64,000 nt of DNA, taken from NCBI RefSeq assembly GCF_964355755.1, contig NC_092675.1, positions 253,001 to 317,000 of the forward strand, given 5' to 3'. Position 1 is the first letter of the stretch. Every line of letters starts with the position of its first letter. Below, piece after piece: positions 7,132-63,542 of this stretch. The notes beneath the pieces are model-generated. The model worked only from the letters and a program-made list of their open reading frames with translations. It did no database searches and had not been told where the DNA came from. This stretch comes from Antedon mediterranea. Taxonomy: Eukaryota > Echinodermata > Crinoidea > Comatulida > Antedonidae. The position numbers were made by a program, and so were the translations under genes.

Positions 7132-7215
7132 CTTCATATCCAGTTGCTGGGTATACATTAACATAGTCAATGCTGTATGTATCTCCTAAATCAACATACC
7201 AATAAGCATTTTCAC
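7132..7215 (-). CDS. Gene A exon 3: F-type lectin domain, part 2
   Basis: 84 nt, phase 1-1. It encodes [20 protein letters not shown], the WW.VDLG...I..V.I core strand of the FTP domain. Acceptor CTGCAG, donor GTAATA. Confidence 0.75.
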
Positions 7216-10200
7216 CTGCAGAATATAAACAACAACATTTTAATTTATATTGTTGTTGAAAAATCCCAAAAAACTAGTAATATTTATTCAATAAAAAGTA
7301 AATGAAATAGAGTATGGTAATAATTACTTAATTAGTACATATACATTTAGGATACTAAAAAACTACTAAAGAAAAATGTTGTTGGATTGTATATATTTTC
7401 TAAATTGTTAATTTAAGTTTAGGGCGACAAATATTGGTAGGCAAATTTAAATTTGTGAAAAAAAGAATAAATTATATTAAATTGATATAATAATCTTACC
7501 AACAGTACGTGAACATGAACCACTGGTAAAGTCCATATCAGTGTTATCATCAACAGCTAAACCAGCATTATATACACCACCCGATGTATCTGTACTCTGG
7601 TAAGCCATCTTGCCAGTTGATAAAACAGCTGAAGAGAAAACAAAAATTACAATATTAACCACCTTCACCACCACAAACTGGGTTTTGAGTCCAAAAAGTG
7701 AAAATTGTGATCTAGATTCAATCCAAATTAAATGGAATATAAGTAACATAAATTTCCCAATCTCTCTCTCTTGCACTCCCACTATCTTATATTAATCAAC
7801 ATTTACCAACATTTAGATGTGCCTAAATCATATGTAAGATGTTTGTATATAGATTTTTCTAGTGCTTTTAATACCGTTGAACCTGGTTCATTAGTACGCA
7901 AACTTAAAGAAATGAACGTAAACGACACATTGACTTCATGGATATATAATTTCTTAACAAAAAGGTTCCAGTATGTTAAACTAAACGGTATTTTATCTGA
8001 TAAAAGAACTGTTAGCATTGGCACGCCACAAGGGTCTGTTATCTCCCCAATGTTGTTTTCACTGTTCACCAGCAGTTTCAGAGCCAATTCAAATGAATGT
8101 TGTATAGTAAAATATGCAGATGACACAGTCATCACTGGATACATTACTGGCAATGATGAAACAAGCTATAGACAACTAGGATTTGATTTTTATCACTGGT
8201 GCTGCAATAACAACCTGAAACTAAACATAAAGAAAACAAAAGAAATGCAAATTGATTTTAGGAAAATTAAAGAACCCTTAGAACCTCTGATTATAAATGA
8301 AAATGAGATTGAAGTAGTAAATGAGTACAAATATCTGGGTTGTATAATTGACAATAAGCTAAATTGGATAAATAATGTAAATAAAGCCACATGCAAAGCC
8401 AACCAAAGGATGTTTATTTTAAGAAAAATGAAGTACCTACAAATTGACAAAACTATACTTAAATTGTTTTATAACTCTGTAATTCTCAGTGTAATACTTT
8501 TTTGTAATGTTTGTTTTTATGGTAATACAATGCAAAAAGATAAAATTAAACTTAATCGAATAGGAAATAGAGCAATTAGACTAGTAGGAGAGCACTTACC
8601 TGATGTTGAATCCTTGTATAAAGAAAATGTGTTAAAAAAAGTAAAAAGTATCATTGATGATGAAACACATCCTCTTCACAAACAATTTGCTCTCATGAAT
8701 TCTGGCATAAGACTACGTGCACTTAATACCAAAACAAAACGGTTTAGGTGCTCGTTTGTACCTAATGCTATACACTTATATAACTCCAGAGTACAAAGGT
8801 AAAATGTAATTGTAACCGATAATTTTTATCTAATTTTAACAATTTTTAGCCTCTTAACTTTTTGTGTGTGTTTTTGTAAATTGTATTTTATATTTTTGTA
8901 TTTTGCCAGTTTTCAAATCACATTTCTGTTTTTTAAATGGACAATAAAGTATATATGACTATGACTATGACTATGACTAATCTGCCTCAAACTCAGACAG
9001 GGATACAAGGTACAGTATGAATAGATACGAGTAGGGCAGAATTAGTCAATTTGATTATTTTTTTATTAAAATTAAGCAAATCGGTCCAAATAAATAGATT
9101 GTAAATAATTGAACTTAAGACAGTAAAACATCTTTTTTTATCGCTGTTGTTAGAGCGGAATGCAATTGATTGGTCAATTAAAAATTGCTCAAACATGCAC
9201 ATTTTAAAAATTCATGGTATAAAGATTTGACTGGTTGTAGTGGTGATTTGGTACGTATTGCGGCTAGATATCATTGAGTACAGTACCTTAATTTGGTTTG
9301 ATTCTCGGACAATTTCTTTTTATTTTTAATTAATTGTTGTCTTTTAGTCGTCTTTACCCACCATTTGACTAGAGATATGTTGTCGTAAATCTAAATCAAA
9401 TTGTAACCCTGGGTTATTAGTCTTTTGTTGTTTTTTAGGGTATTAGAGGAGGGGTTACTATTAGAGTAGTGGGTTACTATTAGAGTAGTGGGTTACTATA
9501 ATAAACAAATTTGGTTGAACTATAACTTTATTTTATAAACTTAAAATCCCCCACTCCCGAGATCACGGACCGCTGTTTGTATGTGTTTTTACTGATTATT
9601 ACATTATAACATTTTATTGTACGGACTGTACGGAAATAAACACTGATAACTTGCATCTTGAATGAGGTGTTTACGTATACACAAACTATCGGCGCCGAAA
9701 ACAGGAAATGGTAAAACTATAGTAGGCCTATATATTTTGGAATATATTATTCATTCATTCATTCATCTTTTATTTCAGAAAAAAATTCTCCATAGTTCAG
9801 TAACAAATTAGTGTACATTATTGCAAATATAACAAATACATATATATATATATGTAGATATATAAAAAAAAAAAAAACCTACGCTACATAGTCACGTGGT
9901 TAGAACAATACAGTAGCTTCATCCATCTACTATGTAGATTGGATGAAGGAAAAGCAAATTATATTATATTATAAGTAGGCCTAGCCTAGGCCTCATGAAT
10001 ATTTTTATTATTTTTCAAGAATATTATTGATTGATTGATATTGATTACTTACGGGCCATAATTCATATTAAGAGAATAATATTCTAGGCTAGTAAGATCT
10101 TTGTCTTTATCAGGTCCTACTTTACCCAACGGCATACCACTATGGAGAGGGGAAATCCATAGACTGAGTGAGTAGTCTATGCCGGAGCCATAAAATAGAG

Positions 10201-10338
10201 AAGAAGCCTCCTACACACTACTCAGTAGTAGTCTAGGCCTACGGATTTTACACACGGATACTTACTGTTTTGAGATGAACTGATGAAGCAATGTTTAAGT
10301 AGAAGTAAAAAAAATAGTGTCAACCTTTTATCAAACAT
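7132..10338 (-). CDS. Receptor gene A: signal peptide plus partial F-type lectin domain (incomplete)
   Basis: Three exons in order on the minus strand: 10266-10338 (ATG, signal peptide), 7500-7628 and 7132-7215 (first two lectin exons). Splice sites are GT-AG and all junctions are phase 1. The spliced frame is open for 95 codons plus one base and reads naturally across junctions, for example TVGENAYWYVDLGD. The third lectin exon and the HYR, TM and tail exons of genes B-D are not found between 7131 and base 1; that interval holds LINE and DIRS copies instead. Either a long intron continues beyond the left edge, or the gene lost its 3' half. Intron 1 contains a Rex1-type LINE absent from the same place in gene C. 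Likely a secreted or membrane lectin if complete; here probably a truncated paralogue. Confidence 0.5.
7500..7628 (-). CDS. Gene A exon 2: F-type lectin domain, part 1
   Basis: 129 nt, phase 1-1. It contains AYQST....YNAGLAVDDN and SGSCSRTV, the A.QSS...AA.AVDGN...SC..T pattern of F-type (FTP) lectin domains. Acceptor TTCAG, donor GTAAG. Confidence 0.75.
7789..8978 (+). mobile_element. Rex1/Babar-type LINE in intron 1 of gene A, 5'-truncated
   Basis: The boundaries come from comparison with gene C, where CACTCCCACTATC is followed directly by TTTAATCTGCCTC (43770-43796). In gene A the same flanks are separated by this 1.2-kb insert. The 3' end carries a tandem TATGAC tail (8953-8978). The opposite orientation to the host gene and the truncation within the RT are usual for a LINE insertion. 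Confidence 0.8.
7800..8802 (+). CDS. Rex1-type LINE reverse transcriptase, C-terminal part
   Basis: Open frame from the element's truncation point to TAA at 8800-8802. Motifs in order: YIDFSSAFNTV, IGTPQGSVISP, VKYADDTVITGY near base 8108, then KLNIKKTKEMQIDFR, the thumb with YLGCIIDNKLNW, and a C-terminus HPLHKQFALMNSG...SFVPNAIHLYNSR. The WC..N.L.LN..KTKEM..DFR string and the HPLH...FVP.AI.LYN ending are hallmarks of the Rex1/Babar branch of CR1-like LINEs. Endonuclease and N-terminal RT are missing. The same family occurs at 52319-54486. Confidence 0.8.
8979..10265 (-). other. Rest of gene A intron 1, homologous to gene C intron 1
   Basis: This interval aligns by eye with 43790-45064: shared blocks near 8981/43789, 9150/43925, 9600/44620 and 10050/44830. 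No exon is seen. A 20-bp tandem unit (GGGTTACTATTAGAGTAGT, about 2.5 copies) sits at 9457-9498. Confidence 0.6.
10266..10338 (-). CDS. Gene A exon 1: signal peptide
   Basis: ATG at 10338-10336; 24 codons ([18 protein letters not shown], then ISSSQN) with a hydrophobic core, ending phase 1 at a GTAAGT donor. It is nearly identical to exon 1 of gene C. Confidence 0.7.
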
Positions 10339-24036: not shown

Positions 24037-24256
24037 TTACTGTTTCAAATCAGTATATGTTGGCTCCATTGATGAGTATGTGTGTAGATCTTGATATCCA
24101 GATTCTGGCCTAGGTAGTGGTGCTGTAACACTGCCAGGTGTTGGCAGGTTTATCTCATATTCTGTAGCAGCTGGTTTCATTGCAACATCATCATACGTAG
24201 GCATGTTCATCGCTGTGGTATCATCCTTTCTCTTGTTCTTCTGAGAATAATAGAAC
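24037..24256 (-). CDS. Gene B exon 6: tyrosine-motif cytoplasmic tail
   Basis: Acceptor ATCTTAG at the same place as in genes C and D, chosen because only it restores the phase 2 codon. A basic KNKRK stretch follows the membrane, then YDDV, YEIN (Grb2-SH2 type YxN), a proline patch APLPRP (possible SH3 site), and the terminal cluster YQDLHTYSSMEPTYTDL, then KQ and TAA. Confidence 0.78.
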
Positions 24257-27200
24257 CTAAGATAATGCATTAGTGCTAGGTCATTTTAAGTATTGTTTAA
24301 ACAAATCTTCAATATTAATGATTGTCCTTTATTTTCATTGCAGATTTGTTGGTACTTTTGAAAGGAGGTATTTTCAAGCAAAGTGCACATACACTCTACT
24401 ATGAAGTATTAGTAAAATATTAAGCATCCCGCATAATTTAAATTTAATATTTTGAAGTATTATTAAATGTGTATACATGTATATTTCTTTTTAAGTACAA
24501 ATAGCACAAGAAATAACACAGAATACAAGATTTTGATTAGAACGGAGAATTTAAATGAATTATATAATTTATTGAAATACACAGTTAAATTAAATAAAAG
24601 TAAATATTAGATTTTACCTATCGAATTAAATAAGCTGTAAAAAAAGAAGAAATAACTTAAATATTTAGATATCAGATTTCATGTGCTGCTTCTAGTAGAT
24701 CATAACAGGATTTAGTAAACAGTTTTGAAACCAGAGAAAAAATTGTCTACAGTATAAGCAAATTATACAACCATTTTAAAAGGAACTTCCTGTGCATTTG
24801 TATTGTAGAATCCAGCTAAACTTTCTAAAAGTTTGTAAAATAAACAAGTATTTGCTACTGAAAGTTTTATAAATGCATTTAGGCCAAGAGAGGCTCAAAT
24901 CACCGCATATTTTAAAGCAGAAAAGTAATGAAGTTGAGCATAATTTCTAAAGAAAATCTACCATTAAAATATGATTTAAAACATACAATTCTACATAATA
25001 AAACTACTGCTACATTATGAAGCTTCTAAATTGAATTGAGAAAGAAATAATCAATCAACCAATAGTTCAATAGAAATAATTTAGAATGTGAGAGCCTGGA
25101 AAACAAATAGAAACAACACCTGCAATAAAAGATCAAAACTGGAAACATCACCAAAATGATGACAACAAGAACAATTATTACTGCTATCAGGTAACCTGGT
25201 ACTGTGTTACTTGATGTGTCTTCACTGCCTTCAAAAGTAACATACTTTAACTGTTCAAATGCATGTTACGGGAAAAACGTTATTCTTTTACTTTCTGATC
25301 AGCCCAGTACAACATTACCACGCCATTAGTAAAGCAAACCGGTCTTAAATGTTTGAACAGGCACATCACAGGGTCAAGGGGTGCAAAGATAATATTTTTG
25401 TCAGTTAGCTTAACGAAATATATATAGTCTTCAGGACCTCATTCTCAGGTTTTGGAAAATTGCACTTCGAAAAGGTAGTAACAGTAAAAATTGCTGTCGG
25501 ACTACGGCTATATTCCTACACTTTATCAGTGGTTTACATTATTTTATTCACTGATCTCTTCTGGGAATTCCCCTATTAAAAGCACAAGGGTGTAAACAGT
25601 TTCAAAGGAGATGCAATGAATAGTAGGTAATGCTTAGACTGATGAACCCAGCAGAGTTTAACTAACCTACAAACATGTGTTTTAAGCAGTAAAAACAATT
25701 ACACTGTATTCCTTGTAGTGATCTAATTCATTGTGAAAATGGTTTAGTTCAGTATAGATGTTTTCAAAATTGAACATTTTTTTTCATTAAACAATAATAA
25801 GCAGTTGGGTGGGACAACAGTATACAATTCTTAAATACATGGCTGGGGTACTAATTTGAACAGCTTTAAAGAGGCTGAGCTTTAAGCACTAACATTGTAT
25901 ATTGCATATTATAGTATATAGAGAGTGATTCATTGGTTGGGGAGACATGGTAACAAGACTAGTCTGAGTACTAGGACAACTAATTCTAGATAATCAAAAT
26001 AAGATACTGTACTATATTTTTATAATAATTATACTCATCAAAAATATTTTTAATTTTACTTAAATACCCCATAAATTCAAATAAAGAATCGTCATCTTTT
26101 TCATACGGCATATAAATATTAATCATCAAGGTACTTTCCCTATCGTCCCTACTATATTAAATCGCAAATGTTTTATTAGTGGTATATTATATATAAAACA
26201 TGAAACAAATATTTCAATACTGAGTAGATAAAAGAATAAAAGATAAAATAAAATGTTAAAATGTAATTTTACATACAAAACACAAATTGGATTTGTCTCA
26301 TTTTGTGACAAGAATCGCCAGTTTTTTTTACCCTGATATTACTATGTGAATTCGAGAAGCATCTGTGGGCACGACCTAGATGGTACGCAAACGAACCATC
26401 TAGTTATAAAAATTCATTACTGAATGACTACAACGATCACAGGATAAATGTCTGAAAGTAAAAATAATGTAATTTATACCTCCATAAACCAGTACTTCAC
26501 ACAAAGTGATCTCGTTACTGTTCTGTTGATATAAAGCGACATAATCTCCAATCAAGGGTGGATTGCAGTATACAATGTAAACACCTGGAGTAGATGTTGT
26601 TGAAGTTATGGATCCACATATGCCATTAGGATCAAAGGACAAACTTCCACTACTAACATAGACCTCAATACCAACAACATTTTCTGAAACACAATAACAC
26701 ATAAAGGTGTTGCTAATCAGTCATTTGCGACATACTTTCAAAGTACTACATGGGTTAGGCTTTTGTATACCATGTACCGTAGAAGAGACAGTTTGAATTT
26801 CTGTTGAGAGAAATTTTTTTCAATCTCAGATTTTCATATCTTTACCATTTTATAAATTATTTATTCGGTGAGAGATGTACAGTAAGCTTGTTTTCGAGTC
26901 AAAGTTGTATTTTAAAATCGTTAAAGTTGAAAATAAATATCAGAAATGATGATCAAGCCGGCCTGTAAATATTTACCAAAAGATCTTTGGAAATCGTTTC
27001 AAATTGGTTTAGCACTTCTGACTTTAAGTGTTGCTGGGACAAACCACGCACGGTCACTTACAGGACATGTTTTCAAGAAGGATCAGTGCTTACATATTTT
27101 GTTCACAAACTACACAATAACCATTTGATTGATCAGTTTTAACAATCGATCAACTGCAATCATTCAATTGTTTTAAATTTCTTGTGGTGATTATACTGTA

Positions 27201-30200: not shown

Positions 30201-30704
30201 AGCTACTTAGGTAGTGCATTGTTTCTCACTTTTTATCATAATTTACCATAAAACGTACATTTAAGACAAGGAATGACATGGTTTAATGTTTTTGAAGTGA
30301 TATATATGTATTATTTTCCAAAAAACGTCCAAAATTGCAGGTGGTAAGGGGTCTTTAAACATACAAAAATCAAAACCTTATCAGTTAAACCTTTGGCAAT
30401 GACAATATATATTTTGCACTATTCTAGCTATGCAAACAGAGCTATGTCTAGGCCTACCTATTATTAGTAGGCCTGGCTACTTCATATTATAGAGCATGAC
30501 TCTCAGATGCCAGTGTAGTAAAGGTGAATTAATTACAATAGCTACTCCCCTAGGCCTACACTAGGCTATAATAATAGTACAGAATTAGAGTAATAGTAGG
30601 CCTATTTAGTAATACTCACTACTGGTGCTTTGTTGAGATAAACAAATGAAGCAATGCCTACTAAGTAGAAGTAATAAAAACAGCCTCACTTCGTTATCAA
30701 ACAT
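24037..30704 (-). CDS. Receptor gene B: F-type lectin, transmembrane, tyrosine-motif tail
   Basis: Six exons on the minus strand: 30620-30704, 27984-28115, 27508-27600, 26480-26683, 25120-25228 and 24037-24256. All use GT-AG sites and their lengths sum to 843 nt: 280 codons plus TAA. Residues 1-28 start with a signal peptide; about 30-170 form one F-type lectin domain; 172-183 a short linker; about 184-206 a single membrane span; 208-280 a cytoplasmic tail with five tyrosine motifs (YDDV 229, YEIN 241, YQDL 262, YSSM 268, YTDL 275). YQDL and YTDL are nine residues apart, fitting ITAM spacing (YxxL/I-x6-12-YxxL/I), and SGYQDL also fits the ITIM pattern. Predicted type I plasma-membrane receptor whose lectin domain would bind a glycan and whose tail would recruit SH2 proteins once phosphorylated. 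It is the shortest member of the array. Function is inferred from domains. Confidence 0.78.
25120..25228 (-). CDS. Gene B exon 5: transmembrane segment
   Basis: 109 nt, starts phase 1, ends phase 2. Extracellular GSEDTSSNTVPG, then about 23 hydrophobic residues (IAVIIVLVVILVMFPVLIFY) without charge, then CR. The same length and layout occur in genes C and D. The missing charge argues against pairing with a charged adaptor in the membrane. Confidence 0.8.
25229..26479. other. Gene B intron between lectin and TM exons
   Basis: Searched by eye for HYR and EGF exons on the minus strand; none seen. This is where gene C carries five extra domain exons. Confidence 0.6.
26480..26683 (-). CDS. Gene B exon 4: F-type lectin domain, part 3
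   Basis: 204 nt, phase 1-1, the same length as in gene C. NVVGIEVYVSSG, a Cys in NGICGS, GVYIVYCNPP and ITLCEVLVYGG complete the FTP fold: the G.EI.VG, C, and TLCEVEVYG strands. Confidence 0.8.
27508..27600 (-). CDS. Gene B exon 3: F-type lectin domain, part 2
   Basis: 93 nt, phase 1-1; PYWYVNLGDMYSIDYILVY. It is 9 nt longer than the matching exon of genes A and C. Confidence 0.75.
27984..28115 (-). CDS. Gene B exon 2: F-type lectin domain, part 1
   Basis: 132 nt, phase 1-1; LSFGKPAFQTTTYVSG, NAGLAVDGNNN, AGSCSRTF. Donor GTAAGT. Confidence 0.77.
28116..30619. other. Gene B intron 1
   Basis: About 2.5 kb, AT-rich, no exon supported. Small ORFs at 29363-29837 show no domain. Confidence 0.5.
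30620..30704 (-). CDS. Gene B exon 1: signal peptide
   Basis: 85 nt. ATG at 30704-30702, 28 codons with core VRLFLLLLLSRHCFICLS, phase 1 end at a GTGAGT donor. The start is supported by the matching MFD starts in genes A and C. Confidence 0.7.
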
Positions 30705-34870: not shown

Positions 34871-34885
34871 GTAGAACTTACATTG

Positions 34886-43200: not shown

Positions 43201-45137
43201 CGCTGTAAAGAAAACAATCATTAGTTGAGTTTATTTTTTCCCTATTTCACAAACAAGTGTAATAAGAGCAATTAGAGAGTTGTGACATCCAGCCACCAGG
43301 GGTAATCGCTGAAACGTATTCTAATTTCATCGAAAATAAATTTTGACAATTTTGACCATTTTATGCGCGCGTACGCAAACGTTATACATGTGCTATGCAC
43401 ATAATTGTATTGCCATGATGAAATATGACCTGAAATTTATGAGTACCACATTTTGTTTAATTGCGATTTATGCTTGTGAATATATGATTACAAACGTGAT
43501 TTCGTTAAATCGAGCATAGACTGGTATTTTTTTATTGCGCACAATGAAAACATAACCCCATTGATTCCTGCCATAAGGAATATACTCTGAACAATTGACT
43601 TAGCTAGTTGAAACTGATATCAAGATAATTGACTAGGACAAAATACTGCTAAAGAAAGAATAAATAAAGATCCTGACAGAATCAATAGGTTATGTGCATG
43701 ATAATGCATATAACCTAATTAGATAGAGTCTAAGTTTACATATATTTTCCAGCCTCTCTTTTGCACTCCCACTATCCTTTAATCTGCCTCAAACTCAGAC
43801 AGATACAAGGTACAGTATGAATAGATATGAGTAGGGTAGAATTAATTAGTCAAATTGATTATTTTTTTATTCAAATTGTGCAAATCGGTCTAAACAAATA
43901 GATTGTAAAGAATTTTTTCATGCTGTCAGTGGAATGTAATAATTGATTGGTAAATTAAAAATTGCTCATGCACATTTTCAAAACCTCATGTATAATATAT
44001 AACACCGATTGATTTGACTGGTTCGTTGGAGTATTGTGGTATGTATTTCAGATTGAAATCAAGTAACTTTATTGGTTTGATTAGGTTCAATTCTTGGACA
44101 ATTTCTTTTTCTTTTTAATTCATTATTGTCTTTTAGTTGTCTTTACCCACCATTTGATATGTTATTTTAGGTTATAGAGAGTCTGCCGGAACTGTACCAA
44201 TTACATTCATTTCTTTTCCCGATTGTTTTGTGTAGAACTACTGTATAACAATAAAATAAATGTTATTATCTATGTTAATTTAATGATATTCTCATATATG
44301 AAATACAGCAACAATGTTTTGGATAATCGATTAATAATACTGCAGTAACTTTGATTGTAAATTGTTTGTTAGAAATGTGTAATGAATCTGAGGTATGAGA
44401 ATAAATGAAAATACTATATAATATGAGTTTAAATTACTGCATAGATCTATATGTATAATCAGATATAAATAATTGTTAATTTTCATTACATTCAAGCAAA
44501 CCTCTGTCTGTGTGATGTACAAAATGATATCATTACAATGTTATTGTCATGTTGGATTATATTTTTAAGAGCTACTTCATCTGCTTCCTTTTTGTATGCG
44601 TTTTTGATCAAAGTTCAATAAAACGTTATAATGTATGGACTCAAAAAATAAATACTGATAATTTGCATCTTTATCGAGCCAAGTTGTGTATAGTAAGTAA
44701 CTGTATACACAAACTTTTTGCCGAAAACAGGAATTGGTAAATCTATTACGAACTGGCTGCCTCCTCTACGCCTAACTAGTCTTAAATGCTGGGCAGTTGA
44801 GTTCCGGTGCCGGAATCCTAACCACGGCGATATTCATATTAAGAGAATAATATTCTAGTAAGATCTTTGTCTTCACCAGGTCCTACTTTACGCCATGGCA
44901 TACCACTGCAGAGGGATCCATAGGCTGAGAGAGTAGTCTAGGCCGGGGCCCAGAGAAGAAGCCTACAGAACAGTTACACACAGTAGTACAGCATTAGTTG
45001 GGCCTAGCTAGCTTGGCTAATTACTTAGCCTATATTTGTCTACGGATTTTACACGGATACTTACTGTTTTGAGATGAACTGATGAAGCAATGCTTAAGTA
45101 GAAGTAACAAAAATAGTGTGAACCTTTTATCAAACAT
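37041..45137 (-). CDS. Receptor gene C: F-type lectin, HYR-EGF-EGF-HYR-HYR, transmembrane, tyrosine tail
   Basis: Eleven exons: 45065-45137, 43086-43202, 42694-42777, 41721-41924, 41194-41406, 40772-40885, 40521-40634, 40030-40266, 39528-39764, 38140-38248 and 37041-37278. All have GT-AG sites; lengths sum to 1740 nt, or 579 codons plus TAA. Order of domains: signal peptide (1-24), F-type lectin (about 25-159), HYR, two six-cysteine EGF modules, two HYR modules, a membrane span near 477-500, and a tail with YDNV, YEIS, YSSL 567 and YIDL 574. The position matching YQDL in gene B is FKDL (Phe 561), so the ITAM spacing of B is lost, while two YxxL motifs three residues apart remain. Type I receptor; the extra modules make a longer stalk. 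Function is inferred. Confidence 0.8.
38140..38248 (-). CDS. Gene C exon 10: transmembrane segment
   Basis: 109 nt, phase 1 to 2. [12 protein letters not shown], then [20 protein letters not shown]. It has two extracellular cysteines and a Gln in the span that B and D lack. Confidence 0.78.
38735..38935. repeat. Minisatellite, about 25-bp unit
   Basis: Diverged copies of CTCCCTCTCAAAGCTTGAT plus CAAG, eight or so, in the intron between HYR 3 and the TM exon of gene C. Confidence 0.8.
39045..39243. repeat. Minisatellite, 21-bp unit
   Basis: About nine copies of TTAATGAATTATGTACTTAAG with few changes, in the same gene C intron. Confidence 0.9.
39528..39764 (-). CDS. Gene C exon 9: HYR domain 3
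   Basis: 237 nt, phase 1-1. [66 protein letters not shown]. Closest to the TM-proximal HYR of gene D (57135-57350). Confidence 0.83.
40030..40266 (-). CDS. Gene C exon 8: HYR domain 2
   Basis: 237 nt, phase 1-1. [61 protein letters not shown]. Confidence 0.83.
40521..40634 (-). CDS. Gene C exon 7: EGF-like module 2
   Basis: 114 nt, phase 1-1, six cysteines, nearly identical to module 1 ([26 protein letters not shown]), so a recent exon duplication. Confidence 0.83.
40772..40885 (-). CDS. Gene C exon 6: EGF-like module 1
   Basis: 114 nt, phase 1-1, six cysteines: [12 protein letters not shown] then [14 protein letters not shown]. It lacks the calcium-binding D.(D/N)EC start. Confidence 0.83.
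41194..41406 (-). CDS. Gene C exon 5: HYR domain 1
   Basis: 213 nt, phase 1-1. [48 protein letters not shown]: the HYR (hyalin repeat) pattern with an Ig-like fold and two disulphides. Shorter than the 237-nt HYR exons. Confidence 0.8.
41721..41924 (-). CDS. Gene C exon 4: F-type lectin domain, part 3
   Basis: 204 nt, phase 1-1; [39 protein letters not shown] and [11 protein letters not shown]. Confidence 0.78.
42694..42777 (-). CDS. Gene C exon 3: F-type lectin domain, part 2
   Basis: 84 nt, phase 1-1; [19 protein letters not shown]. The donor is GTTCGT, weaker than the others. Confidence 0.73.
43086..43202 (-). CDS. Gene C exon 2: F-type lectin domain, part 1
   Basis: 117 nt, phase 1-1; [28 protein letters not shown]. 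It is shorter than in A and B because the segment between AVDG and SSC is reduced. Confidence 0.77.
43203..45064. other. Gene C intron 1
   Basis: About 1.86 kb without an exon, homologous to gene A intron 1. At 43770-43796 it preserves the empty site of the Rex1 LINE found in gene A. Confidence 0.65.
45065..45137 (-). CDS. Gene C exon 1: signal peptide
   Basis: 73 nt, [18 protein letters not shown] core, GTAAGT donor, phase 1. Confidence 0.72.
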
Positions 45138-47176: not shown

Positions 47177-47788
47177 GCTTTACAAAACATGCACATAGAC
47201 AGACAGGAATTACAAACATTCCTTTGTTTACCCAGTTACATGAATATAATATATAGTATACAAATTAAATTATATAGATGGTACCATTCCATCATTTCTT
47301 GTGCAATTAGGTTCTGCAACAGCTTCCATCCAGTGCTTCTAATAGAGCACTGAACGTTGTTGAACAACATACAAGAATTATGAGACTTTAAATTTGTTTT
47401 GTTGAGAACATTGTAATTGATGGCCAGATGTACACTGTGAAGAAGCTCGATCAACATATCTCCTACAACATCAATTTGTTAAATGATAGTCCACTTTCTT
47501 TTTCTAAAAATATAGAGCATACATATTTTTAAAAACTGTTTATAATTATGAATTATGTAGAAATAATATATACACAAGCATTAATCATTTAAGGTATTAA
47601 ATTATTTGTCCCAAAATACAAAAATAAATAACAATCACACTGTAAAATAAACATGTTGTATTAATACATAATGCTGGTTGACATGAGTAGAAGATTGAAA
47701 TTGGGGTTTTCATCTCTAAACCTGAGAATAGCGCTATTTATATATGACTACATGAGTTGTTCATAACATAATTAGCCTCATACTGTTT
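47177..47788 (-). other. 3'UTR of gene D
   Basis: About 0.6 kb; 47260-47350 matches gene B 22425-22520 (CCATCATTTCTTGT, GCAACAGCTTC). No SINE is present, so this is close to the ancestral UTR length. Confidence 0.5.
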
Positions 47789-48013
47789 TAAATCACTACT
47801 GGTCCCACCGACGAATATGTGTGCAGATCTTGATATCCAGAATTAAGCCTTTCTCTAGATTCTGGCTGAGGTGGTGGTGCTGTAACATTGCCAGGTGTTG
47901 GCAGGTTTATCTCATATTCTGTAGCAGCTGGTTTCATTGCAATAGCATCATACGTAGGCATGTTCATCGCTGTGCTATCATCCTTTCTCTTGTTCTTCTG
48001 AGAATAGTGGGAC
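47789..48013 (-). CDS. Gene D cytoplasmic tail exon
   Basis: 225 nt, acceptor ATCTTAG, stop TAA at 47789-47791. [23 protein letters not shown], proline patch APPPQP, an inserted RERLN, SGYQDLHTYSSV, then GPVVI. The sequence matching the final PTY.DLK of B and C is changed. Confidence 0.77.
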
Positions 48014-54000: not shown

Positions 54001-57000
54001 TCAAATCTGTTGTAGAAGGCATTTAAATCATTTGCATATTTCTTTTCACCAACACCCTTTGCCTTCGGTTTATAACCAGTAATATTCTGCAAACCTTGCC
54101 AAACCTTAGATGAGTCACGATTTCGGAAGGACCTTTCAATTTTATTTTTATATTCCTTTTTGCATTCAATAATTTTCCGCTTGATTTGCTTCTGTATATC
54201 TTTTCGCTTCTCTTTCTCTCCGTCATAAAAACATTTCTTTTTCTTATTAAGGAGTTCTTTGAGTTCTTTGGACACCCAAGGTTTATTATTAGAAAAAACT
54301 TTAATTCTTGATACAGGTATAATCATTTCTTCACAGAATCTTACGTATTCGGTTACAACGAGGGTCGCTTCGCTCAAATTTTCTGCATTTTCCGTTAATG
54401 CATCCCAGTTTGTGCATTCAAAACACCCTTTAAGGGTCTCGCTGGCTTCCTCAGTCCAACGTTTTACCTTTATGTATCTTTGACATCCAAAGGCAAGGAA
54501 TGCTAAATTTACCCGAATCCATACTTGTTATATATATTTGGCTTATAATATATAAGTTTTAATTGAAACTCTTAAACTATTTTCCCCTTTAGAATGGTAA
54601 TGGTCATTTTATCGTCATTGATGTGATATATTTTCAATTGTTTTGTGTTAGTTCGATTAAAGTTAAACTTTATTCAATTAAACATGTTGTTTTGGGTGGT
54701 TATTTTTTTGCTGCTGGTGGTATCTACAATATCTAAGGTAGGCTATATACTTGGGGTAAATGGGGGAACTTTAGAGGGGTCTGCCAGTGCCAAGGCAGTG
54801 TACAGATAGTCTGTTATAGGTCATTTTGTATTGCTTACAATGTGCTAAATCATAATTATAACATTGGTTGCTGGTGGTATCAACAATATCTAAGCTAGGC
54901 CAGTTGGGGGAATGGAGTCTCTAGTCGAACTTTAGAGGGGTCTGCCAGGGTCAAGGCAGTGTACAGATAGTTTGTAATAGGTCATTTGGTGATTGCTTAC
55001 AATGTGCTAAATCATATAACATTGGTTGCTGGTGGTATCTACAATATCTAAGCTGGGCTAGTTGGGGAAAGAGGGTCTCTAGTCTAACTTTAGAGGGGTC
55101 TGCCAGGGCCAGGGCAGTGTTCAGATAGTCTGTAATAGGTCATATGGTATTGCTTACAATGTGCTAAATCATATAACATTGGTTGCTGGTGGTATCTACA
55201 ATATCTAAGCTGGGTTAGTTGGGGGAAGGGGGGCCTCTAGTCTAACTTTAGGGTGTCTGGCACTTGCGGTGCAGCAGACAATTAGTCTGTTGTTATCCAT
55301 TTAGTATTGTATGAACACAACTTGTTCGTTTGGAATTGATTTTGAGTGGTACCTCACTCATCTATGCTAACTCCATTTTAGGCCCTCCCTCGGGGGGTCT
55401 GGCGGGCCTTTTACAGCAGAGAAAAAGTCTGTCGTTTGTGATACTGTTATAAGGATGCCAATGGGCATCCCATGGTGGTAAAATTAGGTGGTATCTCTCT
55501 CATCTAACCTGTGCCGATTTTTTAGCACGTTTCGGGGTCCCCCGGTCTAGGCGCAGCAGGGGGTACCCGGCAGACTCCCATTTTCATTCACTTCAAGTGA
55601 CCCCCAACACACTCAAATAGTCAGATATTGGTACCTAGCTCATCTAACCAAATGTCTCTGGGCTGCCGGTCTATATCTTAAAAGATTTTGGATTGGCATT
55701 TTTAAATCAAATTTTTAAAATAGAAAAGAGTAATGCAAGTACGGTAAGTAAAATATTCAGTTATAAGACATTTAATATTCTGAACTACAGTATATTATCA
55801 TTCGAAATCTACAGTACGATATAATGTATTTGAAAATAAATTCATTACACCAAAATAAAGATTTTTAAGTAGAAGAATTAAATTATTTATTATAATTTAT
55901 AGAAATACCAAGTTAATATATATACAGTAAGTTTAAATTTAACGAAGAAGTAACAGAAATATTTAGAAATCAGATTTGCTGTGCTGCATCTAATGAATGT
56001 CAGAAAAAGAATAATTTGATTTAGTAAACAATTAGCATTGCAACCAGAGTCTGCCAAAGAAAAGCAAATACTACTATATAATAAGGTTAAAGTAAAACAA
56101 ACTGGAACTATTCTTTGATTAAAGCAGAAAGGAAAACTTTTTACAATTTTGTGAAATAAACAAATATTTGCTACTGAAAAGTTTTATAAATGCATTATTA
56201 GACCAAGATTTCTCAAATCACCATATATTTTAAACAGATTAATGAGATTAAGCATTGTATGCAAAGTTATTTACTAATCATTTCTAAAAAAAAATATACT
56301 ATTAAAATAGAAATATTCTACATATTATTACAAACTGCTGCTACTGTAAGTTGAGGAAAAGAATCAATAAAATAGCCCAATAGACATTGTGCAATTAAGG
56401 ATCTGCAATGAAATGTAAACACCTGCAATAAAAGATCAAAACTGGAAACATCACCAAAATGATGACAACAAGAACAATTATTACTGCTATAAGGTAACCG
56501 GATACTGTGTTGCTCAATGTATCTTCCCTGCCTTTAAACAATAATAGAACATGTTAACTAAAAACATTTTTTGAATTTAGTAAACTAGTTTACAAATTAA
56601 ATTCTGGGCTTTATTCAACCATTTATCAGTACAGATCCGTTTTAAAGGGTATTGAGTTACATAATAATGTGAATAATTTGCCATCAAAGTGAACAACCTT
56701 AGGCTGGGAGCCAAGAATAGAGTAAGGTTGATGCCACACATTATCGGGAGAGCTGGGAGATTTGTTTATACATCCATTTTAGTTGATAAAATCTTCAAAA
56801 TTCCATCAGATAATTGTTAACTACTGTGTTTAAGCTATTTTTAACCAGTGAGAGTTTACAATTGGTTAGAATAAGAAATATTTCACACAAAATTAAAGTG
56901 AGGTACTGTTGTCTGAAAAGCAATTTCAACTTGTAACAGTAATGTGCAATTGTTTAGACAAATTATTAGAGCGGTGATTATATATGCATTTTTGCATAAT

Positions 57001-60000
57001 GTTTAATTAAATTAAATTCAGGTAGCCACTGAAATCAAAAGATCTACTGTTAGCAGTACAATTAAATGTACTTTTAAGGGAAAAAAATGACTTCTAAGCA
57101 CTCTTTCACAAATGCATGTTACACTAGTACTTACCATCAAAGGAAACTGTAAATTCACAGCTACCTGTATTTCCAGCAATATCTGTTGATGTGCAAGTTA
57201 CATCAGTTGAACCGGCATCAAATAATGAACCAGAAGGTGGAGAACAAGTAGGTGACAGACCATTGTCACTGACCAAGAGGTCATTCCAGGTCACAGTAAA
57301 TTGATTTTTCGCACGGTCAGGACATGTTACAACTGGAGCATCACTATCATCTGGGAAATGGAATGCAAGTTACTGGTAAAATTCAAATGAAAGAAAGCTC
57401 ATAGAAACCAAATGAAAATGGTTATAATCAGAAAAACTTTGAGTAATGACCGAGAAAGGTAACATTAAAGTAAAAAGCAGAAGTTAAAGGGAAAGCATGA
57501 ATACATCTGTACTGTAATCACAAGCAAAACATTGTCAATTACTACTGTAATGATATTAATTGATAAAACTAGTATAGCGCCACCTATGGCAACTCTTGAT
57601 AAGACACACATAACATGGCGATACAATCGTATACTTGGAATACATTAAAGTTAGAGTTTAAAGATAAGTTGTGTGTCAGTACTTTATTGTCGTGTCCAGG
57701 GAGAACCACTACAACTACCAAATTAACTGTACTCAATAATTACTCCATGACTCAATTAAATAAATGAAAATTGCACTTAATGATGCTTAACATGAAAAGA
57801 AGGACCACCAGTACAAATCACTGTTATAGAAACCTATTGTGGATTACCAGAAAATGATCAATATAGTAAAAAAAAGCCTTTACCAATAATGATATTAACT
57901 GTAAATTGACAACTTCCCACGTTCCCAGCAATATCTGTAGCAGTACATTTAACACCATTTGAGCCAATATTAAATGATGAACCAGAAGCTGGAGTACAAG
58001 TTGCTGACAGACCATTGTCAACATTGTCACTCACTGAGGGGTCATCCCAGGTCACTGTAACTTGTTCTATGTTTGTACGTTCTTCAATGTTATCAGGACA
58101 TGTTACAATTAGACCCCCAGAATCTTTATAAAGAATAAATTAAATTAGATATCATGGGTGGGACATCATTAGTTTGATTCTTTTACAATGCATCATGTAT
58201 AGTGCAAAAATATTGAGAGTACTCTTAAGTATAAAATAATCCTCTAATACATTATCAATTAACCCCTTTGTTTACTGAAACCAGTTGAGTTTTGTGACAA
58301 GGAATATAAATTGACTTTCCTGTTCATAGATTTAAAAAAGTTAATAAAAATAGCACAAGTTTGTAGTTGTACTTTACCATTGATAATAACTGTAAATTGA
58401 CAACTTCCCATATTACCAGCACTATCTGTAGCAGTACAAATAACATTAGTTGAACCAGCATTAAATAAGGAACCAGAAGGTGGAGTACAAGTAGCTGACA
58501 GACCAGTATCAACATTATTACTCACTGAGGGGTCATCCCAGGTCACTGTAGTTCCTTCTGTGTTTGTATCCATGGTTATATCATCAGGGCATATAACAAT
58601 GGGAATTCTTCCATCTTATAAAAAATTCATTCGGAAAATAATTAAAGTGGAAATGAACAAGAAAAGACAAAATAGTTTGAGCAGAAGTGACTAATTTCAT
58701 TCATTATTTTCATTAGAAAAAACAAGCATTTTATTAAAGGAAAAATCAATATGTTTTAGAAGCAAAAGCAAAGCAGATATTTAGGCCCCATTTTGATATG
58801 AATCCAAACTCAGGGTTTGCATAATATTGTTCATTAAATACGTGTTCTTCTAAACTTCTTTTTTAAACATTATTATTTTTGCGAAGAAAACTTTAATGAT
58901 GATAATAGCAGACAATTTGTTAAGATTAAAAATATTTAAGATATAGGAAACCATGGTCATATTTCAAAATTTTATATATATCTAATTAATGTCAAAATTA
59001 GAATTTAATGGAAAGGTACAGTGAGCTGCTAAAATTAAACGAATTTATAAAATTATTATATATAATATTTTTAACATATATAAAATTTTCCATCAACGCA
59101 GAAAATAATCAATACTGAAACGAATATACTATAGTACTACCCTTGTTATCTTCAAGAAAAATTATTTTTAAGGTGAGACTTTTTAATAATTGTATAATTT
59201 TGTATTGTTAGATTTTAAGATTTTTATATATTTTTATATGGTATAGTTTATTCCATTCTGTAAGGGGCGGGTTTCCCGCTGTTGAATGAATTTGAATAAA
59301 ATAAAATAAAATAAAATAATATAGACCGAGATTTTTTGCCTATTATAATAATTTAATAACAAAATATATTTTTAATTCATAATCACCAATATTAATTATC
59401 TACACTCTACCATTTTTCATAATAAGATATTGTGGAACCATGTCAGGTCAAGTTCAATATTGAATATTGAAACGTGGCAGGCTGAAGGCACTTGACCTTT
59501 GACAAGATCGCCTATAATTGTTTTAGTATATTAGACAAGTTCTATTTCCTCTGAAATATGGTGTAAGAACCATTTTTGGGTAGAAGCTGGGATCCACTTG
59601 ATTTAGGATATTTCGACCTCGCTGATTACGAATATGGCGGATCCCAAGCGAAATTTGGCCATCTAAGCCCTTAATTTGCATAATTAAAAATGGCGGCCAT
59701 TTTTTATAATTACCATATATCTCGAGAACCACTAGTCACAGATACTTAATTTTGGTCTCAAAATGTTTTAAATATATGTTTTTATATTCACTTTAAAAAC
59801 ACATTTTCTCAAAAAATGGATGCAAGTCTTATTTCTGACATTTTGACCTTTGACCTTGATTTATCGTATCTCAGTAACCAATAATCGGAGAGACACGAAA
59901 TAGGGCTCAAATTGTTCAGAAACTATACATTCATATTTATTATAATGAAATGTTTTTACAAAAAATGACCGATTCTACAACTATTGACCTTTGAACTATT

Positions 60001-63000
60001 AGTCAAATATAATAATATACTAATAATATAACTTTGAAAATTGTGGTCTTATGAATTTTGTTTTCTTTTTAAATTGTTTAAAACATGTGTGTTTCTATCC
60101 AGTCTAATGGCACATTTTGTACAAGAATGGCCGATAGTATGGTTATTGACCTTTAAACTACAGCATAGGCCTACTGTATACTAAATATAATATAATTGCA
60201 TAAATAACTATGAAATTATTTATACACAATAATAATTAGTAAAATTATAAAATTCACTGCCATCAAATATGATGTCACTTTTATGATTTATATAGATTAA
60301 AAAAAAATGTGAACACGCAAGTTACATTTGTTGAAATTTGAAATTTTAAATTACCTGCCATCAATATGATGGAGTATGATTATAGATTTTTAAAAATGTG
60401 AACATGTTAGCTAAATGTGGAAATTACATGCCATCAATATGATGGATTATGATTATAGATTTAAAAAAGAATTTGAACACGTAAGCTAAATTTGAAAATT
60501 ACCTGCCATCAATATGATGGATTATGATTATAGATTTAAAAAAGAGTTTGAACACGTAAGCTACATTTGAAAATTACCTGCCATCAATATAATGGATTAT
60601 GATTATAGATTTAAAAAAGAATTTGAACATGTCAGCTACATTTGGAAACTTGGAAATTACCGGCCATCAATATGAAGGATTATGATTGTATAGGTTTGAA
60701 AGAAATGTGAACACGTAAGCTACATTTGGAATGAACATGTCAAGGGCATCAGTTTTGATCATTCATGCAAAGGTTTCCGTCATCTTTAGCGTTGTTACAG
60801 CAGCATAAAGCTGTACATGGTAGTTTTGACTTCTTGCACCTACATCTATATGGTTATGCATCGTGTCTTGCGTCCACAATAAATCATCTCTAACGAAGGA
60901 GTAAGAATAGCTTCATTTTTCAGAAGCACTGGTTGAAGTTTACCATTAGATAGCTCCCAACCAAAATCTGTTGGTGATGGCAAATGCTGGATTGGCGATA
61001 CAGCTTTTTTCAATACGAGTGCTTGGAAGTGTGCTCTTTATATGCTGGTGCACTGCATCGCTTGTTGGAGGTAATGCCTCAATAACCATACTATCGGCCA
61101 TTCTTGTACAAAATACATTTGAGAAAATGTGTCATGAAAGTGAATATAAAAACATATATTCAAAACATTTTGAGATCAAAATTAATTATCTGTGACTAGT
61201 GGTTCTCGAGATATAGGGTTAATTATAACAAATGGCCGCCATTTTTAATTATGCAAATTAAGGGCTTAGATGGCCGAATTTCGCTTGGGATCCGCCATAT
61301 TCGTAATCAGCGAGGTCGAAATATCCTAAATCAAGTGGATCCCAGCTTCTACCCAAAAATGCTTCTTGATTCGTTTTCTAAGCCGTTTTTTGAGAAATGG
61401 AACCTGTCTATATTAACTTTACAATACTTAGTGTTGTATATTCTGGTACAGCCGCTCCATAATCTCTTAAAAAAAGAAATATATCAATACGATACATTTT
61501 TGTAACAACAAAAAACAGACAAAAGTTTAAATAAAGTAAACATGCAGAAACTTAAGAAGTGGCATAATAAATTCTGACTAACCATTAACAGTAACTATGA
61601 ATGTACATTCTCCTTCTCGGCCAGCATTATCAGTTGCAGTACAAGTGACACTATATGAACCAATATTAAATGATGAACCAGAAGGTGGAACACAAGTAGC
61701 TGACAGACCTGTATCAAAATTGTCACTGACTGAGGGGTCATCCCAAGTCACTGTAGTTTGGTCTGTGCCTGTATCTTCTTCAATGTTACTTGGGCAGGTC
61801 ACTTGAGGATTACCAGTATCTATACGAAATATTTGTATAACATTCATAAAAATAATGTTGGCCATAACAATTATAGACCTTCAATTCAAAATATTTTATA
61901 TTATAGAACACATAAATAGATTCTTGTCATTTAATTGGATGATTGTGGATCACATGATAAGTAATTGCCTATTCACATATCGTGGTGAATTCCAATTTTT
62001 ACTGACTACAGCCCAGATAATGACAGCATAACAACAATCCTTTGCATATGATCCAGCAAGAGAACAGTAAATTACTCAATTATAGGTTGAAGACCAGAAC
62101 AAGAAGCGACATCCATCACAACAAGAAGAAATGGCAAATTCCGATTGAAATTTGCTGTTGGAACTCAAAAAACACCAAAAAGCAAAATCAAATATACGGT
62201 CAGTAGCCTGTAGAGGCAAATACCCTCTTTAGATGTTCATGCTATGGTACAAATAATTTCATTCGGTGAAAGAGGAAAGGCCACATAACGCCATCTTAAA
62301 TAATTTATACCAGCTCACACATAAACAATCATTATTTGTATATTATACATTTAAGTTTTTAAATGAATGCTTACAAAACTTACCAAATACACTAACTGTG
62401 AAAGTACAACTACCACTGTTGAAAGCCATATCTCTAGCTGAACAATAAACATCAGTTGAACCAATATGAAATAATGAACCAGAAGGTGGAGTACAAGTAG
62501 CTGACAGACCAGTATCAATATTATCACTGACTGAGGGGTCATTCCAGGTCACTGTAACTTGGTTTGATATTGATGCACCTCTACCTATATCAGCAGGGCA
62601 ATCAACACTGGGACTAATGTTGTCTAGCAAAACAATATAGGATGTAAAACTAATTAATAATGTATGTATCATATGTATAAATACTTACTTTACCAAACCC
62701 ATACACTTTTGAGCTGACCATACATTTGGTTTTGAGAATCTGGTTTTCAATTATATACAATAAATATTGGTACAACTGGTATTGGAAGATTTTCCAATTG
62801 TTAAACTTACTTTTTAGCATATGTAAACTGGATTTTTGGTGTTCAATTTAGCTATTATTATTATTATTAGTAGTATTATTGCATAAGCACAGTGTCTTGT
62901 TATTTATGCAAATTATACAATTTCCAACCGTTACCAGAATAGGAAGCAGTTGTAAGTGCTCTATAGTCCAAAAGATCAAATAAATAAAATGAAAAAAGTG

Positions 63001-63542
63001 CTTTAAATATGAAAATTTGTTTTAAATAGCTCTATATTATGAGTACCACACTTACACCACAATAATATACAACAAGTAATAGATTGTATTTATGTCAAAA
63101 GTGAGATATGTCTCTTCAATTTGTTTTTTTTGTTTAAACAACACTCATGAAGTCTAGACCTACTGAAAACTAAACTTCCTAAATTGACAATTTGTGAAAC
63201 TACTGTAAAGTATAACATACCTGATACAACTTGAACAGTAAAAGTGCATTCACCAGTATTAGTATCACTATCAGTTGCAGTACATGTTATAGTAGTAGTA
63301 GAGCCAACAAGAAATGATGAACCAGATGGTGGAGTACAGCTGGCAACCAGGTCAGTGTCAACATCATCAGTCACTGTTGGTGCATCCCATGTCACAGTTT
63401 GCAGTAGTTTCACAAATTGTCAATTTAGGAAGTTTAGTTTTCAGTAGGTCTAGACTTCATGAGTGTTGTTTAAACAAAAAAACAAATAGTTGTGTAGAAG
63501 CAATAATATCATCAGGACAGGTCACAACTGGTATAACAGGCA
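47789..63542 (-). CDS. Receptor gene D: six or more HYR domains, transmembrane, tyrosine tail (5' part outside)
   Basis: Exons seen on the minus strand: 63221-63542 (HYR, disrupted), 62384-62623, 61583-61819, 58378-58614, 57884-58123, 57135-57350 (HYR), 56423-56531 (TM) and 47789-48013 (tail). All HYR exons are phase 1-1 and the TM exon is phase 1-2, as in gene C, so the frame is continuous from 62623 to the stop. The signal peptide and presumed lectin exons would lie beyond the right edge. The tail keeps YDAI, YEIN, SGYQDL and YSSV but ends in VGPVVI, having lost the last YxDLK motif. The TM-tail intron is enlarged to 8.4 kb by a giant inverted repeat. The outermost HYR exon seen here carries an inverted duplication with stops, so at least that exon, and possibly the whole gene, may be non-functional unless skipped. 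Confidence 0.7.
48529..49025. repeat. About 157-bp tandem units in the left arm
   Basis: The word CTTAGATATTGTAGATACCA starts at 48529, 48686, 48844 and 49001, spacing 157-158 bp. Each unit carries GATTTAGCACATTGTAAGCA. The right arm holds the inverse set at 54715-55210. Confidence 0.88.
49570..49620 (-). ncRNA. Hammerhead-ribozyme-like motif (left copy)
   Basis: Inverse copy of the motif, on the Penelope coding strand, with the stem as GGGC/GCCC (fully paired) but ATGATGA instead of CTGATGA, so the conserved C is lost. Confidence 0.35.
50060..50895 (-). pseudogene. Penelope-like element, RT C-terminus and GIY-YIG endonuclease
   Basis: The first frame (50895-50428) reads FVDTIVTIENGTLKTDLFRK and PTDKNMYLLPSSCH, the RT thumb landmarks. 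A frameshift near 50520 leads to FPEPPIIAFRRPPNLRDILV, a CCHC-like zinc knuckle region, and the GIY-YIG nuclease NVIYLIYCNICGKQYVGETK with RMRMTQHRSAIN. The nuclease motif is intact; it would nick target DNA in an active element. Confidence 0.85.
51000..51533 (-). pseudogene. Penelope-like element, N-terminal and early RT region
   Basis: Contains LPSRGLKFCPKPR, then LSLDIESFSRRLRLREYF, SSWNPPKNRCPALE and RQRNDIIIKPADKGSATVA, all standard landmarks of Neptune-like Penelope polyproteins. A stop follows at DIKFY. Frame change near 51050. Confidence 0.8.
51984..52035 (+). ncRNA. Hammerhead-ribozyme-like motif (right copy)
   Basis: CTGATGA at 51992-51998 and GAAA at 52015-52018 flank a GGGC/GCGC stem with a TAGTGTT loop, followed by GCTCTGCTAAC, which could form the short stem III of minimal Penelope-type hammerheads. 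One extra A lies between CTGATGA and the stem, which departs from the strict consensus, so self-cleavage is unproven. Confidence 0.4.
52319..54486 (-). mobile_element. Rex1/Babar-type LINE inserted in the right arm of the inverted repeat
   Basis: The left arm holds the uninterrupted site (GATACATTCGTCTGTAAC near 49280); in the right arm GATACAT and GTCTGTAAC are separated by this element. The 3' end has a tandem ATTGA tail (52319-52340). 5'-truncated before the RT. Confidence 0.85.
52552..54470 (-). pseudogene. Rex1-type LINE RT with one frameshift
   Basis: The upstream frame (to about 53850) carries the pre-RT linker with NKKKKCFYDGEKEKRKDI and KLNPRKAKGPDNIS. A frameshift near 53845 leads to a 431-codon frame ending at 52552 with DLRPVALTCVPMKCLEKIV, VDFSSAFNNIQP, TGVPQGCVLSPLLYKIYTND, IKYADDTALIGY near 53240, LNINKTKEMVFDFRKK, and a C-terminal HPLHYKFNKSQRC. 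Same family as 7789-8978 but from a different subfamily, judging by sequence. Confidence 0.85.
54487..55673 (-). repeat. Right arm of the giant inverted repeat, outer part
   Basis: Inverse of 48064-49275. Lacks about 28 bp present at 49228-49256 on the left, between two ATTCCT words, consistent with a short-repeat deletion. Confidence 0.8.
55674..56422. other. Remaining gene D intron sequence next to the TM exon
   Basis: Non-coding, AT-rich. 56150-56220 resembles gene B 24830-24910 (AAATATTTGCTACTGAAA), as expected for paralogous introns. Confidence 0.55.
56423..56531 (-). CDS. Gene D transmembrane exon
   Basis: 109 nt, phase 1 to 2. REDTLSNTVSGY, then IAVIIVLVVIILVMFPVLIF; almost the same span as gene B. 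Confidence 0.8.
57135..57350 (-). CDS. Gene D HYR exon (closest to TM)
   Basis: 216 nt, phase 1-1. [55 protein letters not shown]. It lacks the VDT residues after SDN found in the other copies; otherwise close to HYR 3 of gene C. Confidence 0.8.
57884..58123 (-). CDS. Gene D HYR exon (second from TM)
   Basis: 240 nt, phase 1-1. [60 protein letters not shown]. Confidence 0.82.
58378..58614 (-). CDS. Gene D HYR exon (third from TM)
   Basis: 237 nt, phase 1-1. [49 protein letters not shown]. The first HYR motif reads VICPDD (VTCP elsewhere). Confidence 0.82.
60350..60720. repeat. About 72-bp tandem repeat
   Basis: Roughly five copies of a unit containing ACCTGCCATCAATATGATGG and ATTATGATTATAGATTTAAA, with modest divergence. 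Confidence 0.85.
60740..61110 (-). pseudogene. Decayed cysteine-rich (CXC-like) ORF inside the palindromic element
   Basis: On the minus strand, in two or three frames: LPPTSDAVHQHIK, then LPSPTDFGWELSNGKLQPVL and LTPSLEMIYC, then CRCKKSKLPCTALCCCN followed by GNLCMN. The PPTS.A..QH, LPSP..WGW and C.C.K..LPCT.LC.C order is one I recall from poorly characterised invertebrate proteins often linked to transposons. The cysteine cluster resembles a Tesmin/TSO1 CXC half. Frameshifts and stops (near 60845 and 61050) make it non-functional. Confidence 0.5.
61583..61819 (-). CDS. Gene D HYR exon (fourth from TM)
   Basis: 237 nt, phase 1-1. [60 protein letters not shown]. Confidence 0.82.
61820..62383. 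other. Gene D intron between HYR exons
   Basis: No exon or repeat recognised. Confidence 0.5.
62384..62623 (-). CDS. Gene D HYR exon (fifth from TM)
   Basis: 240 nt, phase 1-1. [57 protein letters not shown]. Confidence 0.82.
63118..63209. repeat. Intronic partner of the inverted duplication
   Basis: 92 bp whose inverse lies at 63398-63487; it starts AATTTGTTTTTT and ends CTACTGTAAA, 11 bp from the HYR donor site. Confidence 0.85.
63221..63542 (-). pseudogene. Gene D HYR exon (sixth from TM) broken by a 90-bp inverted insert
   Basis: PVVTCPDDIIAST at the start and VTWDAPTVTDDVDTDLVAS, CTPPSGSSFLVGSTTTITC and CTFTVQVV at the end are normal HYR sequence. Between them 63398-63487 is an inverted copy of 63118-63209 from the adjacent intron, which adds stops and destroys the frame. 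Acceptor CATGTAG and donor GTATGT are intact; skipping this phase 1-1 exon would keep the frame. Confidence 0.75.

Follow-up and report, generated by a model that had tools for sequence, protein, structure and literature searches.

Whether a run of related exons on one strand encodes a family of cell-surface receptors, and what such receptors would recognize and signal, is the question raised by a stretch of 64,000 nucleotides (C6:253001-317000; hereafter the window) in an animal genome of 354 Mb and 18 contigs. An earlier note on this DNA had proposed a tandem family of four minus-strand paralogues, each with a signal-peptide exon, an F-type lectin, a transmembrane (TM) exon and a tyrosine-rich tail, and had read them as recognition receptors. 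The receptor architecture is well supported and carries that part of the proposal; fucose binding, and an ITAM-like pair in all lectin-bearing members, have to be given up. The explanation preferred here, to which we give about an even chance, is a tandem family of single-pass type I receptors with a non-fucose F-lectin head, part of which would signal through an ITAM and Syk. The animal is a bilaterian, as shown by a run of 12 Hox-type homeodomains at C2:7.83-8.21 Mb, a set that we take to resemble Hox1-8, 9/10 and three 11/13 types. With posterior genes of this appearance the set points to an ambulacrarian rather than a lophotrochozoan, possibly a crinoid or a hemichordate; no COX1 match was found in the assembly.

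Complete and partial genes in the window

Two genes, B and C, are complete. Their exons sum to 843 nt in gene B (85+132+93+204+109+220) and 1740 nt in gene C (73+117+84+204+213+114+114+237+237+109+238), exactly as previously claimed, and both reading frames run uninterrupted from ATG to stop. In both genes all internal exons have AG and GT borders, and the introns are of phase 1 in the ectodomain and of phase 2 between TM and tail. The exon order on the minus strand is signal peptide, three-exon F-type lectin (L1 to L3), optional HYR and EGF modules, a 109-nt TM exon and a terminal tail. The parts of all four genes that lie in the window are as follows.

30620..30704, minus strand: gene B signal-peptide exon (splice and frame check)
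27984..28115, minus strand: gene B lectin exon L1 (exon model)
27508..27600, minus strand: gene B lectin exon L2 (exon model)
26480..26683, minus strand: gene B lectin exon L3 (exon model; Pfam)
25120..25228, minus strand: gene B 109-nt TM exon (19-residue hydropathy 3.6)
24037..24256, minus strand: gene B tail exon (YQDL-x9-YTDL intact; stop TAA)
45065..45137, minus strand: gene C signal-peptide exon (exon model)
43086..43202, minus strand: gene C lectin exon L1 (exon model)
42694..42777, minus strand: gene C lectin exon L2 (exon model)
41721..41924, minus strand: gene C lectin exon L3 (exon model; Pfam; PDB)
41194..41406, minus strand: gene C HYR exon 1 (Pfam)
40772..40885, minus strand: gene C EGF exon 1 (Pfam)
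40521..40634, minus strand: gene C EGF exon 2 (Pfam)
40030..40266, minus strand: gene C HYR exon 2 (Pfam)
39528..39764, minus strand: gene C HYR exon 3 (Pfam)
38140..38248, minus strand: gene C 109-nt TM exon (exon model)
37041..37278, minus strand: gene C tail exon (FKDL in place of the first YxxL; YSSL and YIDL kept)
10266..10338, minus strand: gene A signal-peptide exon (donor GT, phase 1; similarity to gene C)
7500..7628, minus strand: gene A lectin exon L1 (AG/GT borders; similarity)
7132..7215, minus strand: gene A lectin exon L2 (similarity; splice check)
57127..63419, minus strand: gene D, six HYR-type ORFs (63093-63419; 62346-62684; 61581-61880; 58262-58615; 57861-58139; 57127-57369)
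56423..56531, minus strand: gene D 109-nt TM exon (exon check)
47788..48013, minus strand: gene D tail exon (shortened, ending in SSVGPVVI and a stop; last YxxL gone)

Gene A continues beyond the left edge of the window, where L3 lies at -415..-215 and five HYR-type ORFs extend to about -3900. No TM or tail match was found in C6:233001-253000 (a stretch that includes one 200-N gap), and neither tail nor TM matches are listed for the interval from C6:127 kb to C6:277 kb in searches of the genome. Gene D runs off the right edge, with its lectin exons at +64192..66016 and no match to a signal exon within 28 kb to the right. The acceptor before the domain is missing from its first HYR-type ORF (63093-63419), which together with the early stop in the tail rules out a gene D equal in completeness to B and C. 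Since gene A shows no TM or tail down to C6:233001 and gene D has its lectin outside and carries defects, the window contains two genes that are complete and two that are partial, so that only half of the four proposed paralogues have all their parts within it. A tail that continues into a kinase or phosphatase domain is likewise ruled out, as the tail exons of B and C carry stops and neither model contains a catalytic domain.

Similarity among the genes extends to the signal exon and its flank, which are 93% identical between A and C over 193 columns and 78% identical between C and B over 74 columns. The stalks vary: B has none, C has HYR-EGF-EGF-HYR-HYR, and D and A have their six and five HYR-type ORFs, respectively. 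Because the exons are symmetric (1-1), stalk modules can come or go with the frame intact.

Gene D is interrupted between TM and tail by a 7.6-kb element (48064-55673) with inverted terminal repeats of about 1.1 kb (98%). On its minus strand a reverse transcriptase ORF (52555-53847) is followed by a GIY-YIG match (50063-50539), an order from which we take the element to be Penelope-like. It begins roughly 20-50 nt upstream of the gene D tail acceptor, with similarity to the family reaching 48035 and the repeat arm starting at 48064.

Several other features accompany the genes. A Ty3-type element with reverse transcriptase, RNase H and integrase zinc domains (17343-20657 and 20648-21370) is flanked by a 101-nt direct repeat (97%) at 17151 and 21769. 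Between genes B and C, a reverse transcriptase ORF with an upstream PHD-finger ORF (32302-35773, minus strand) is probably one non-LTR element, and a 21-bp satellite (39003-39284) lies just 3' of the final HYR exon of gene C. To the right of gene D, a few EGF exons at +67497..68639 are followed by a TM-like ORF with the basic stop-transfer IYIIAAAVTAALILLMIVVIIILLRKRR, unrelated to the TM-tail cassette described below, and +69000..+93000 consists of tandem units of about 2.5-3.2 kb with repeated sets of ORFs.

The lectin head

The lectin exons match the Pfam family F5_F8_type_C_2 in B (5e-9) and C (3e-9), and gene C also matches HYR in three stretches (8e-30) and EGF in two (2e-12). With the lectin of gene C as query against PDB at E <= 1, only two matches were returned, FBP32 (1.4e-8) and AAA/1k12 (0.004), both of them F-type lectins. 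These domain matches exceed chance by far. This fold is abundant in the genome, with at least 97 F5_F8_type_C_2 matches listed when 150 of 199 candidates were scored, and with clusters for example at C2:23.97-24.00 Mb and C10:24.49-24.50 Mb.

F-type lectins are described as carrying a fucose motif, HX24RXDX4(R/K), and a cation motif, h2DGx (PMC5712786). The genome contains 11 L1 matches, and in all eight L1 exons that were read the His of the fucose triad is replaced by Arg (CSRT); in one further L1 fragment, at C9:7595737, the His position is not readable. RXDX4(R/K) is absent at its site from all five lectins that could be joined. The likeness to AAA and FBP32, which belong to the same fold family by sequence, extends to the cation motif, kept as AVDGN or AVDGD in four of the five (B, C, D and the copy at C6:425k); gene A has AVDDN. 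As a control, FBP32 as query led to eight further F-lectin loci in the genome: CSHT or CTHT occurs in four distinct ORFs and RXDCC in two, and one locus holds the canonical His and RXDCC together (counts from filtered scanning of some 3.2 kb per locus). Since canonical F-lectins are thus present in the genome, loss of the triad is particular to this receptor group. It is not new in itself, as triad residues are also reported missing from Drosophila CG9095 and five oyster isoforms (PMC5712786). The name F-type lectin is therefore apt for the fold family but not for a fucose binder, and the best reading of the head from its residues is a putative non-fucose F-lectin of a recognition-receptor family.

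The array, the TM-tail cassette and the tail tyrosines

The array reaches beyond the window to the right, an extension that the earlier note had put up for testing, and also to the left, with related exons over C6:127-475 kb and on C9; its last lectin match is at C6:474 kb. The TM exon, which is strongly hydrophobic and free of charged residues, has eight matches in the genome at E <= 0.1. A search with the tail gave 11 rows that represent 10 exons, the C3 exon being matched twice because the first part of the tail is present there in two copies. Eight of these exons score at E < 1e-7, and the two weak ones, on C1 (E 0.045) and C9 (E 0.67), each have a matching, equally oriented TM exon on their 5' side. 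The full order L1-L2-L3, six HYR, TM and tail is repeated at C9:7680-7688 kb, where the tail keeps YDDI and lacks the YxxL pair. At C3:38.035-38.056 Mb a TM exon (97% identical) and a double tail are preceded on their strand by EGF, VWD, C8, TIL and EGF exons (VWD 9e-18, C8 8e-19, TIL 2e-12); the duplication within this tail exon (C3:38055294-38055773) affects the YDDV-YEIS part. At C1:6.838-6.845 Mb TM and tail follow HYR exons, with no lectin in the 10 kb examined. From their order and strand the exon series on C3, C1 and C9 probably each form one gene, in which case the TM-tail cassette would not be bound to the lectin and would also occur under EGF-VWD-C8-TIL and HYR ectodomains.

ITAMs follow the pattern YxxL/I-x(6-12)-YxxL/I, to which the tail of gene B conforms with the last two of its several tyrosine motifs. 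Half of the tail exons contain YxxL-x9-YxxL (B, C6:430k, C6:127k, C3 and C8), corresponding to five of the seven aligned tails, and the pair is absent from C and D within the alignment and from C6:403k (which stops early), C1 and C9:7680k outside it. Within the window only B has the pair, as gene C has Phe for the first Tyr and the last motif is gone from gene D. In the genes with both a visible lectin and a visible tail (B, C, D and C9:7680k), the pair is again confined to B, and the 10-26 kb examined near each of the other four intact pairs yielded no lectin. The description of the tail as ITAM-like thus applies to 5 of 10 tail exons, at a spacing of 9, but to only 1 of 4 genes that join it to a lectin. 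This last ratio, with no lectin seen beside the remaining pairs, counts against the ITAM/Syk reading. So do the spacing of 9, which exceeds that of classical ITAMs, and the shortness of YxxL, a motif that serves endocytosis too.

These tyrosines could instead serve sorting or bind adaptors (clathrin AP-2 YxxPhi, PI3K YxxM, SH2/PTB) in scavenging or adhesion receptors that do not signal through Syk, an alternative that is unlikely yet of appreciable weight. It would account for the equal conservation (86% in the seven aligned tails) of six tyrosine columns rather than two, for the YSSM, YSSL or YSSV that stands between the two YxxL motifs in six of the seven, for the YDDI retained by the C9 lectin gene that has no pair, and for the survival of the pair in a single one of the four lectin genes with a visible tail. 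It sits less well with the exact recurrence of YxxL-x9-YxxL on three chromosomes, in five exons altogether, and with a conservation of 0.80 in the block that bears the pair vs an average of 0.69 in the remaining tail.

Rates of change were estimated as omega by the method of Nei and Gojobori with 200 bootstrap draws. Across all ten lectin pairs omega is 0.70-1.19, with an interval below 1 in none, values near 1 that could mean either diversification or relaxation. The lectin at C6:396k was excluded because of its broken L2 donor (the GT after L2 is missing), and two C9 lectins, the first half of the C3 tail and the tails at C6:403k, C1 and C9:7680k were excluded as well. Among tails other than that of gene C the 15 pairs give omega values of 0.25-0.59, and in nine of them the interval stays below 1 (a lower bound of 0.00 in two tail pairs stems from dS saturation), and all six pairs that include gene C range over 0.51-1.04. 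Compared directly, B and D give 0.82 (0.53-1.22) for the lectin vs 0.39 (0.14-1.16) for the tail, and B and C give 0.85 vs 0.97. As head and tail values overlap for the same gene pair, a contrast between a changing head and a constrained tail is suggestive, not proven.

Several of these observations bear on another explanation, that most copies in the window are decaying duplicates, that only B and perhaps C works, and that no multigene lectin-receptor system exists here. Gene A, for which no TM or tail was matched, fits such decay, as do the acceptor-less first HYR and shortened tail of gene D with a retroelement close to the tail acceptor, the lost donor at C6:396k, the early stop at C6:403k and the omega near 1 of the gene C tail. 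The complete exon order at C9:7680-7688k speaks against it, together with intact tails at C6:430k, C3, C8 and C6:127k, albeit below other ectodomains, and we regard general decay as unlikely.

Syk, related receptors and possible roles

The genome encodes a tandem-SH2 Syk-family kinase. One Syk orthologue lies at C6:534-545 kb (534001-546630), about 60 kb past the last lectin match. Among the six rows returned with human SYK as query, the N-SH2 domain is covered only by C6:544759-545130, an N-SH2/inter-SH2 exon that matches SYK at 5e-38. Some 7 kb farther downstream lie two kinase exons, with matches to ZAP-70/SYK at 1e-48 and 2e-47; one row there that scores better is 9p9u, named EGFR (9e-62). 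The proximity of Syk and the array, a post hoc observation, may be coincidental.

From these sequences we infer signalling by the receptors, including phosphorylation and Syk recruitment, as we do their expression, cell type, ligand and response. Under the ITAM/Syk reading, ligand binding at the head would cluster the receptors, Src-family kinases would phosphorylate the YxxL tyrosines, and the Syk orthologue would dock through its tandem SH2 domains and set off an activating response, for example phagocytosis, cytotoxicity or a self/non-self reaction. C, D and C9:7680k, the lectin members in which one or both YxxL motifs are missing, would then be non-activating, hemITAM-like or decaying.

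None of the titles and abstracts examined among open-licence PMC papers on F-type lectins with ITAM or HYR joins an F-type lectin to an ITAM, a combination that may be published elsewhere. Dectin-1 is a vertebrate lectin receptor with an ITAM or hemITAM, and both CLEC-2 and Dectin-1 are C-type lectins and type II proteins, whereas the present family is of type I and has the F-type fold. CLEC-2 nevertheless resembles it in combining a lectin-fold head with a Syk-type tail motif, and its hemITAM signalling is reported to need Syk (PMC10253181). Drosophila furrowed/CG9095 is described as membrane-bound, with an F-type lectin domain and a predicted TM segment (PMC5712786); its stalk is made of CCP and C-type lectin modules, in contrast to HYR and EGF here, where gene B also has the YxxL-pair tail. 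Draper and Megf10 each carry an ITAM that is read by a Syk-family kinase (PMC8092387), and Draper/MEGF10/CED-1 share with the present family a single-pass form and an EGF-type ectodomain. Unlike those receptors, which are marked by an EMI domain and a Nimrod/EGF array, the present family has HYR modules, a lectin head and a multigene array; the tails of B and C, as read, lack NPxY, and neither gene has an EMI match (Pfam, E <= 0.1). Taken with the Syk gene, the architecture, the YxxL pair of gene B and the hydrophobic, uncharged TM agree with an activating receptor that signals directly, broadly like Draper/Megf10 or CLEC-2, a likeness that implies no membership in those families.

Invertebrate allorecognition systems are also among the closest parallels. 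Hydractinia candidate allorecognition genes are reported to carry ITAM/ITIM motifs, and Botryllus ampullae to express syk-family kinases; fester and uncle fester themselves are described as lacking any known signalling domain (PMC12065747). The likeness to Hydractinia Alr and Botryllus fuhc lies in an invertebrate recognition tied to ITAM/ITIM signalling. Unlike the Botryllus receptors, which have Ig/Sushi ectodomains, B and C show no Ig or Sushi match (Pfam, E <= 0.1). High allelic polymorphism is a further mark of such allorecognition receptors; the genes described here come from one assembly. That the array is itself an allorecognition or gamete-recognition locus of this kind, with polymorphic heads that are compared between individuals and an ITAM leading to a reject response, would be in keeping with the tandem arrangement, a lectin omega near 1, complete copies beside decayed ones and the Syk gene about 60 kb past the array. 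Against it, polymorphism would have to be assumed from a single assembly, members on C9 and C3 are unlinked to the array, and nothing points to a colonial or fusing life style; such a locus is very unlikely. For the receptors of the preferred explanation, a paired-receptor or allorecognition use is possible by the same analogy.

A more elaborate proposal, quite unlikely as a whole, would make the family an activating immunoreceptor complex of its own, in which an F-lectin fold without its sugar site has turned into a fast-changing head, much as Ig domains have in other animals, and is combined with a TM-ITAM cassette shuffled under F-lectin-HYR, HYR-only and EGF-VWD ectodomains. Copies that have the YxxL pair would be activating partners and copies that lack it silent ones, and the neighbouring array and Syk gene would make up a single locus for recognition, perhaps of self and non-self.

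The best-known case of multigene, changing receptors that signal through ITAM and Syk is that of vertebrate lymphocytes, with colonial invertebrates as a less fully known one. A family assembled from F-lectin and HYR modules, probably in an ambulacrarian, would be evidence that this logic arose a further time, and the shuffled TM-tail cassette offers concrete genes for studying how ITAM receptors arise.
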